Source: Symbiodinium sp. CCMP2592 | Lineage: Eukaryota; Sar; Dinophyceae; Suessiales; Symbiodiniaceae | Reading direction: 5' to 3' | Assembly (NCBI GenBank): GCA_905221615.1 | Contig: CAJNDT010006158.1 | Location: 124,001 to 188,000 of the forward strand | Length of the DNA stretch: 64,000 nucleotides | Part shown: positions 12,237 through 19,693 of the stretch, one piece after another | How the letters are laid out: each line of letters starts with the position of its first letter | How positions within the stretch are numbered: the stretch's first letter is position 1 | Translations under genes and position numbers: made by a program | The notes under the pieces: generated by a model | What the model saw: the letters and a program-made list of their open reading frames with translations, nothing else | What the model was told of the DNA's origin: nothing | Database searches by the model: none

Positions 12237-12361
12237 GTCTGGTTCTTAGTAGGGCTTAGGGTCACTTAACTTAAAAGGGATCCATAAGGGTACTAAGGGA
12301 TCTATCGGGGTTTAAAGCTTTCCACATCAAGGTCGCTGGAACTTTAGGGACTTTCAGGGTT

Positions 12362-18120: not shown

Positions 18121-19693
18121 TTATGCGCTGCCCAGCTGATCTCGCGCGGCACTGCTGTCACCACCACCACAAGAAGAGCCCCATGTCACGACAGAGCCAT
18201 CATCTAGGATCGCAGCAAAGGCACTCTGAGTTGCTTGAATCTGTTGCACATTCTTCAGCTGATGTGCCACAGCACTGCTGTCACCACCGCGGCCACTATC
18301 GCCCCAGGTCACGACGGAGCCATCACCCAGAATCGCAGCAAAGGCGAACGAAGTTGCTTGAATCTGCTGCACATTCCTCAGCTGATCTCGGACGGCACTG
18401 CTGTCACCACCGGTTGTAAAAGCGCCCCAGGTCACGACCGAGCCATCACCAAGGATAGCAGCAAAGGCCAGCGAAGATGCTTGAATCTGCTGTACATTCC
18501 TCAGCTGATCTCGGACGGCACTGCTGTCACCACCGTTGACAGCATATCGCCAGGTCGCGACAGAGCCATCAGAAAGGATCGCAGCAAAGGCACCCTGCGT
18601 TGCTTGAAGCTGCTGCACATTCCTCAGCTGATCTCGTACAGCGCTGCTGTCACCACCCAAGGCCGGATGGCCCCAGGTCACGACGCAGCCATCACCCAGG
18701 ATCGCAGCAAAGGCACTCTGAGTTGCTTGAATCTGTTGCACATTCTTCAGCTGATGTACCACAGCTCTGCTGTCACCACCGCTGCCACTATCGCCCCAGG
18801 TCACGACGGATCCATCACCCAGAATCGCAGCAAAGGCGTAAAAATTTGCCTGAGTCTGCTGCACATTCTTCAGCTGATCTCGGACGGCACTGCTGTCACC
18901 ACCGCGGCTACTATCACCCCAGGTCACGACCGAGCCATTACCAAGGATCGCAGCAAAGGCGAACGAAGTTGCTTGAATCTGCTGAACATTCCTCAGTTGA
19001 TCTCGGACGGCACTGCTGTCACCACCGAGGGCAACATCACCCCAGGTCACGACTGAGCCATCACCGAGAATCGCAGCAAAGGCGGACGAAGTTGCCTGAA
19101 TCTGCTGTACATTCCTCAGCTGATCTCGGACGGCACTGCTGTCACCACCGCGGCTACTATCGCCCCAGGTCACGACCGAGCCATTACCAAGGATCGCAGC
19201 AAAGGCGAACGAAGTTGCTTGAATCTTGTGTACATTCCTCAGCTGATCTCGGACGGCACTGCTGTCACCACCTTCGCCAGCATTTCCCCAGGTCACGACG
19301 GAACCATCTCCGAGGATCGCAGCAAAAGCAAACCTTCCGCCACGTATATCGACTCGTCGAAGTTCCAGGAACGTCAGTGGCTCCTGATACTGCAGCCTGG
19401 CCTTTTTCAACAGCGCTCCTCCATCAAGAACCTGGGTTCTTGTTGAGGAGTTTAAGGTATTTAATTACATTAAAGCCATCGTAAATACACGGTTTCCTTA
19501 TTATAACAACTTAGTTGTCTTCTTCCCTTAACAAGAACCCAGGAACTCTTCCGATGGAGTCCAAGAGCCGACCTCTGCCAGCTCCCAGGGCTCTTTGCGC
19601 GCGCACCGTCAGCGATTCTACGGATTCGTCGTCGTGCGTCTGCAGTGACACTGTCTTGCCACTTATGAGGCTTACCTCAAGTGTAGATGACAT
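18121..19693 (-). CDS. Ubiquitin-like + RCC1-like repeat protein
   Basis: Two exons: 19547-19693 (49 codons from a true ATG, MSSTLEVSLISGKTVSLQTH...) and 18121-19431 (436 residues plus stop), 485 residues in total. Residues ~1-80 resemble a ubiquitin-like fold, as in dinoflagellate relatives where the segment continues VLDGGALLKKARLQ. From about residue 89 to the end are nine full and one partial copies of a 41-residue repeat (pattern AFAAILGDGSVVTWGD...GGDSSAVRDQLRNVQQIQAT), related to RCC1/HERC beta-propeller blades; the GSVVTWG and GGDSSAV cores are kept in nearly every copy. The DNA repeats every 123 bp with high identity, indicating recent homogenisation. One copy is more diverged (GSVATWRYAVNGG). 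Likely a protein-protein interaction scaffold; enzymatic function is not shown. The long antisense frames at 18123-19484 follow the same 123-bp period and are shadows. Confidence 0.85.
19432..19546 (-). mobile_element. Introner: foldback element forming a GT-AG intron
   Basis: 115 bp between the two coding exons of the UBL-RCC1 gene. In sense orientation it starts GTTCCTGGGTTCTTGTTAAG and ends CTCAACAAGAACCCAG. CTGGGTTCTTGTT at the 5' end and AACAAGAACCCAG at the 3' end are exact 13-bp inverted repeats, extended imperfectly. GTTC precedes the element and is repeated at the first bases of the next exon, so one GTTC copy supplies the 5' GT and the element end supplies the 3' CAG. Removal joins codon 49 (Arg) to Val in frame and restores the segment expected for the family. 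Confidence 0.85.

Follow-up and report, generated by a model that had tools for sequence, protein, structure and literature searches.

The locus and its predicted intron

The window analysed here is a stretch of 64,000 nucleotides from the dinoflagellate Symbiodinium sp. CCMP2592 (contig CAJNDT010006158.1 of GenBank assembly GCA_905221615.1, forward-strand positions 124,001 to 188,000), and our subject is a short element with inverted ends that lies within a UBL-RCC1 gene on the minus strand and appears to behave there as an intron. The predicted intron runs from 19546 to 19432, follows codon 49 (AGA) in phase 0, measures 115 nt and reads GTTC...CCAG with GT-AG borders; it consists of a GTTC target duplication and a 111-bp element whose 13-bp inverted ends are perfect. 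The features at the locus are the following:

19547..19693, minus strand: exon 1 of the UBL-RCC1 gene, codons 1-49, with the ATG at 19693
19543..19546, minus strand: upstream GTTC copy of the 4-bp target duplication, which would give the 5' splice site GT; a single GTTC stands here in 6/6 fetched empty paralogues
19432..19542, minus strand: 111-bp non-autonomous terminal-inverted-repeat element (putative introner), both ends reading CAG outward, the sense end predicted to give the 3' splice site
19530..19542, minus strand: 13-bp terminal inverted repeat on the 5' (donor) side, perfect
19432..19444, minus strand: 13-bp terminal inverted repeat on the 3' side, perfect, with the predicted acceptor CAG at its end
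19432..19546, minus strand: predicted phase-0 GT-AG intron, 115 nt; 86 of the 96 homologues that span residues 44-56 are gap-free there
19428..19431, minus strand: downstream GTTC copy, predicted from the sequence to be kept as exon and to open exon 2
18121..19431, minus strand: exon 2, with the remaining UBL-like region, the RCC1 repeats (Pfam RCC1_2) and the stop ending at 18121

A sequence-only reading of this stretch had described the 13-bp inverted repeats, the GTTC duplication at the borders and their coordinates, all of which proved exact, and had assigned the GT to the duplication and the CAG to the end of the element, as the letters bear out. On the plus strand the duplication appears as GAAC at 19428-19431 and 19543-19546. 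The ends of the element (19432-19542) are CTGGGTTCTTGTT and AACAAGAACCCAG, and its arms reach 18 nt at 94% when one flanking base is counted in. Excision of GTTC together with the element joins exon 1 (147 nt) to exon 2 (1311 nt including the stop) into the frame of a 485-aa UBL-RCC1 protein. The duplication of GTTC makes five cutting registers equivalent, all yielding an identical mRNA, and GT-AG borders are found in only one of the five. If the 115 nt are left in, the frame shifts and runs into a stop about a dozen codons past the junction.

When the 485-aa protein was scanned against Pfam, RCC1 repeats were recovered (RCC1_2, 1.1e-27) and the ubiquitin family gave no match; the UBL label of the first part of the protein comes from the names and domains of homologues only. 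Residues 1-100, used as a query, retrieved 107 homologous proteins, whose named source organisms are all Symbiodinium. Residues 44-56 are aligned in 96 of these, 86 of them without a gap, so that removal of the intron does restore the reading frame of the family, as had been claimed, and a pattern of a hydrophobic residue, L and D, N or A, like the VLD of the join, is seen in 66/96. These homologues are annotated or predicted proteins, and they inform on the frame and not on gene structure.

Empty and filled sites in paralogous genes

The genome searched was the window's own assembly (1,098,105,373 bases in 5,383 contigs), in which the window is C5296:124001-188000. A search for paralogues with the first 98 residues scored 150 of the 3,971 first-look candidates and returned 151 matches (150 rows by hand count). 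Codons 49 and 50 are read through in one frame in 148 of the 150 listed matches, three of which carry one internal stop, while the remaining two rows start at the junction and are the filled genes, namely the window gene and a gene on contig C1524. In all six uninterrupted paralogues that were fetched, the empty site is a single GTTC located exactly at the position of the duplication, and the comparison with intron-less relatives that the sequence-only reading had called for is thus in its favour.

Two more filled genes, on contigs C1878 and C4279, were found through the element itself (95% element identity) and are absent from the rows of the protein search, which was therefore not exhaustive. 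The four filled paralogues have in common the site, the duplication and both ends: as read from the alignment, all 30 terminal columns (duplication plus both 13-bp ends) are identical in 4/4 genes, and between any two of them 6 to 25 of 125 intron columns differ, as do 2 to 15 of 180 adjacent exon bases. The same intron without inverted repeats, which would have spoken against an introner, was not seen among the filled paralogues found, since 4/4 keep both 13-bp ends.

A young insertion had also been proposed, and here only the introner part of the proposal stands. When the window element was compared with its relatives (40 scored matches), the 37 others, leaving out the element itself and the two paralogous copies at 95%, were 72-74% identical to it. 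The family does include a near-identical wave, as many of the listed 111-bp copies differ by few bases and similarity to one copy reaches 0.93 or more in 22 of the 51 perfect-ended copies that were examined. Because the insertion is common to four duplicated genes and its other relatives are only 72-74% identical, it is judged from these comparisons to predate several gene duplications and not to belong to the youngest wave.

The element family across the genome

The suggestion that the terminus defines a family was confirmed by genome-wide counts, since it occurs 3,218 times (1,626 + 1,592) compared to 58 (32 + 26) for a reversed control, and there are 248 perfect end pairs of 96-126 bp compared to none. 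Stretches were fetched around the first 100 places on the list, which make up loci L001-L086, and for 38 further perfect pairs. From these we examined 51 perfect-ended copies, leaving aside L005, which duplicates another locus, and L087, L088 and L095, which are paralogues of the window intron; as 18 of the 51 had been chosen as near-identical and 20 as diverged, the shares of young and diverged copies are not estimates. An exact 4-bp duplication flanks 31/51 (14/22 near-identical and 17/29 diverged), where about 0.2 would be expected at 1 in 256, and seven more carry a duplication that matches at three of four bases. In an earlier set exact duplications were seen in 22 of 69 partner assignments, but partners in that set had been selected with the help of the duplication, which makes the 51-copy count the fair one.

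Terminal inverted repeats combined with a target-site duplication of fixed length are the marks of a terminal-inverted-repeat DNA transposon or a miniature inverted-repeat transposable element (MITE), and an introner is expected to be present in numerous similar copies scattered through a genome, to which 40 scored BLAST matches attest here besides the end counts. The pair of ends had no match in IMG/VR. When 11 bases of the terminus were used as a text string to search the literature, the ten matching papers listed, of 59, were unrelated by title, and prior publication of the terminus is possible.

Among the near-identical perfect-ended copies, 8/22 are without an exact 4-bp duplication (L056, L063, L069, L096, L098, L101, L103 and L105). 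It is possible that deletion in the flanks or a less strict cut lies behind the missing duplications. L096 is itself centred in a further perfect palindrome, with 15 complementary bases per side, and has no 4-bp direct duplication. The same perfect ends also delimit some longer copies (L004, L051 and L062 at 177-178 bp, L037 at 232 bp), and L004 and L051 look like introns, in a TMEM144 and a mitochondrial carrier gene, respectively.

Other copies as likely introns

Copies with a duplication starting with G followed by T, C or A were tested by removing the duplication and the element, reading the junction and scanning the product against Pfam. A first set consisted of nine of 13 candidates, picked by eye as coding-like, and five of the nine joins gave a Pfam match. 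For TMEM144 (6.7e-18, GA donor, duplication matching at 3/4 bases), MFS_1 (3.7e-8, GA donor) and Mlh1_C (3.6e-6, GT donor, GTTG duplication, both ends perfect) the match spans the junction. The other two are the C-terminus of a proteasome beta subunit, proteasome beta-2 (8.6e-9, GA donor), and a mitochondrial carrier (1.4e-13, GC donor). The proteasome join also aligns over the junction to solved beta-2 chains. The MLH1 join is gap-free over the junction when aligned to the protein P0108, with 50/61 residues matching, and P0109 reads through the same junction and diverges six residues on; both derive from ENA contigs and probably represent genomic open reading frames without this MLH1 intron. 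Ten of 21 junction open reading frames served as controls (nine with a non-donor orientation or a non-donor duplication and one GC-donor copy, L014), and none of the ten gave a Pfam match. The borders of the element would hence be the borders of predicted introns in several unrelated genes, as is expected of introners.

Interpretation and alternative explanations

Taken together, these observations make it highly probable that 19432-19542 represents one member of an abundant, non-autonomous family of DNA transposons, a MITE-type introner that along with GTTC would be spliced out as a GT-AG intron. The element would have inserted once, in an ancestral gene, at a single GTTC, the gene duplications following afterwards. 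At about 111 bp it is too short to code for a transposase, and a transposase made elsewhere would have moved it. The spliceosome would then remove GTTC plus the element as a GT-AG intron, with the donor GT coming from the upstream GTTC and the acceptor CAG from the element's own end, and because each splice site would be supplied in this way the protein would be left unchanged by the insertion. Since both ends are the same inverted repeat, CAG would be brought in whichever way the element lands, and since dinoflagellates also accept GC and GA donors (PMC11453091, in the part consulted), a larger share of 4-bp duplications would be usable as 5' splice sites.

Several results weigh against this interpretation and need to be acknowledged. 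In the domain tests, the MFS_1 match lies 0.3 bits under the cut-off, the matches of the proteasome and mitochondrial carrier joins fall downstream of their junctions, and a gap of one residue adjoins the junction in the proteasome alignment. In the search of solved structures, the MLH1 join scored best against a pyridoxal kinase (4.3e-4), a match that we took for chance, and next against five Mlh1 rows, which matched weakly (0.0012-0.0014). A second set, made of all eight new donor copies with an exact duplication, gave no Pfam match (0/8), nor did the single join of the GC-donor copy L014 (0/1); because the second set gave 0/8, support from conserved domains comes from the first set, picked by eye. 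Overall, Pfam supports 5/18 joins in donor orientation, and the genome search for paired ends proposed by the sequence-only reading can be said to have found some copies that coincide with likely introns in other genes. Within the family, 20/51 perfect-ended copies are without an exact 4-bp duplication, and the near-identical copies L098 and L103 carry 6-bp repeats instead. Lastly, the exon changes between the window gene and its C1524 paralogue comprise four synonymous and six non-synonymous ones, so that purifying selection is not clear, and the frame of the filled C4279 paralogue is broken by TTTAGGG-type runs.

Some of these points would also be in line with an ordinary MITE that broke the UBL-RCC1 gene and left a pseudogene with no splicing at all. 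The unspliced frame does reach an early stop, one filled paralogue is disrupted by TTTAGGG runs, and most ends of the family lie outside donor-type sites (G and then A, C or T after the end in 27/100, compared to 17% expected). An insertion without splicing, however, does not account for a frame that is restored exactly to the family pattern and stays open over 485 codons, for a donor, an acceptor and ends that are unchanged in four paralogues (30/30 columns) in spite of 6 to 25 differences in 125, or for other copies at the exon joins of conserved genes such as MLH1, and we consider a broken gene very unlikely. Even less probable, to the point of being almost negligible, is a conventional old intron that was lost in the paralogues and whose border repeats are coincidental. 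Introns of any origin can be lost, and this one is common to four genes, but its ends are found 3,218 times in the genome and delimit likely introns at sites with no relation to this one, the 4-bp duplication is absent from 6/6 fetched empty paralogues, and precise loss would be needed in up to 148 paralogous matches.

The manner of splicing could also be other than the introner reading supposes, in that a hairpin of the inverted ends, rather than ordinary recognition of the donor, might bring the splice sites together, as has been proposed for Amoebophrya (PMC7789003, part of the text). The RNA of the window intron is predicted to fold better than its shuffles (z -4.5), as is that of the L087 paralogue (z -4.9), and the young copy L020 folds far better (z -16.4); moreover, the 13-bp ends are unchanged in 4/4 filled paralogues found, and GT, GC and GA donors all occur. 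The borders of the window copy are nevertheless plain GT-AG, its interior pairing has decayed (25 of 55 positions are self-complementary, compared to 44-46 in near-identical copies), and the conserved ends may reflect the splice sites alone. A main role for the hairpin therefore seems unlikely to us, even if it is the least improbable of the alternatives considered here.

Insertion preference and retention

Whether introners select sites compatible with splicing, or are simply retained at them, is a question that this family makes it possible to address. We tallied 100 distinct exact ends in the fetched stretches, dropping L005, L087 and L088. The two bases past the end are G and then A, C or T in 27/100, compared to 17% expected (p = 0.011); 6/100 ends show those two bases in reverse order (p = 0.002). 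When exact duplications with a donor on either strand were counted, diverged copies exceeded expectation (19/34 compared to 31%, p = 0.003), while near-identical copies showed no more than chance (3/14, p = 0.57). The difference between the two groups has p = 0.054, or p = 0.029 for perfect-ended copies alone (11/17 compared to 3/14), with samples that are small and partly chosen. The duplications are 88% A+T in near-identical copies and 66% in diverged ones.

These statistics are consistent with a transposon whose insertions are unrestricted but persist where they are spliced. Given an acceptor that is palindromic and donors of three accepted kinds, a plain MITE would in that case become an intron-maker by retention. 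We only tentatively suggest, however, that splicing hardly influences where the family inserts and that its introns are what survives, with no insertion specificity having evolved, a view to which we give clearly less than even weight; subfamilies with differing insertion habits would look identical.

Relation to known introners

The mechanism of intron making has itself been published before for Symbiodinium. Gozashti et al. 2022 (PMC9860276), in the portions available to us, describe introners of Symbiodinium microadriaticum with 4-bp target-site duplications and terminal inverted repeats that carry the 3' splice site, the 5' splice site being drawn from the duplication, and report GC and GA donors among introners. 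According to the legend of their Fig. 2B, introner family 1 of that species would be alike in all four respects (4-bp duplication, inverted repeat, 3' site carried and 5' site taken from the duplication), and the example given spans 115 positions (86725-86839), the window intron being 115 nt, a likeness by description and not by sequence. The portions seen of PMC11453091, summarising Roy et al. 2023, mention dinoflagellate introners, among them 15 families in Polarella glacialis that comprise at least 100 introns each, which likewise resemble ours by description only.

In the excerpts used from Farhat et al. 2021 (PMC7789003), Amoebophrya introner elements form a foldback structure and carry inverted repeats (8-20 nt) and direct repeats (3-5 nt) where the intron meets the exons, and are in all these respects like the window element. 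They are defined among non-canonical introns, however, whereas the window copy is GT-AG, although other copies of the family have GC or GA donors with AG. MITEs as described in the same excerpts share a size of about 111 bp, inverted ends, a short target duplication and many copies; unlike plain MITEs, some copies of the window family appear to act as introns. Introner elements in Suessiales are mentioned in PMC10522408 and PMC11114475, with no sequences given in the passages seen, and the text at hand of PMC4201569, on introns gained in Symbiodinium sPCP genes, contains none of the strings inverted repeat, direct repeat, transpos or CTGGG.

What the present case contributes is an unusually complete set of filled and empty sites in one genome, with four filled genes, more than 100 uninterrupted paralogous matches and a target that can be followed base by base, within a family that numbers thousands of ends and spans a near-identical burst as well as diverged copies that appear to form introns.

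Other repeats in the window and the paralogues

Under one set of thresholds the window holds 47 foldbacks of 50-200 bp between 614 and 58613, mostly 80-130 bp long, compared to none or one in each of ten Markov-shuffled sequences. They form several families, the largest linked group having 11 members. Those other than the element at 19432 fall into other families, and only the foldback at 19432 sits in the UBL-RCC1 gene. A direct repeat of at least 4 bp lies near the ends in 14/47, the element at 19432 included, and is absent in 33/47; as offsets of -6 to +7 were allowed, some of the 14 may be due to chance.

Judging from the 3,971 first-look candidates, the UBL-RCC1 family looks very large in this genome. 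TTTAGGG-type runs replace or interrupt the coding sequence of some of its members, at about 940-975 and 1284-1320 of L088 (C4279) and at the start of exon 1 in L095 (C1524), and the window itself contains 12 perfect arrays of this type with at least three units, scattered along its length. Such runs could be repair scars filled with a telomere-type repeat. In the C1878 gene (L087, about 1261-1278), the terminus TACCTATAGTCTCC of another foldback family of the window, as found at 12361, lies directly upstream of the shared coding sequence.
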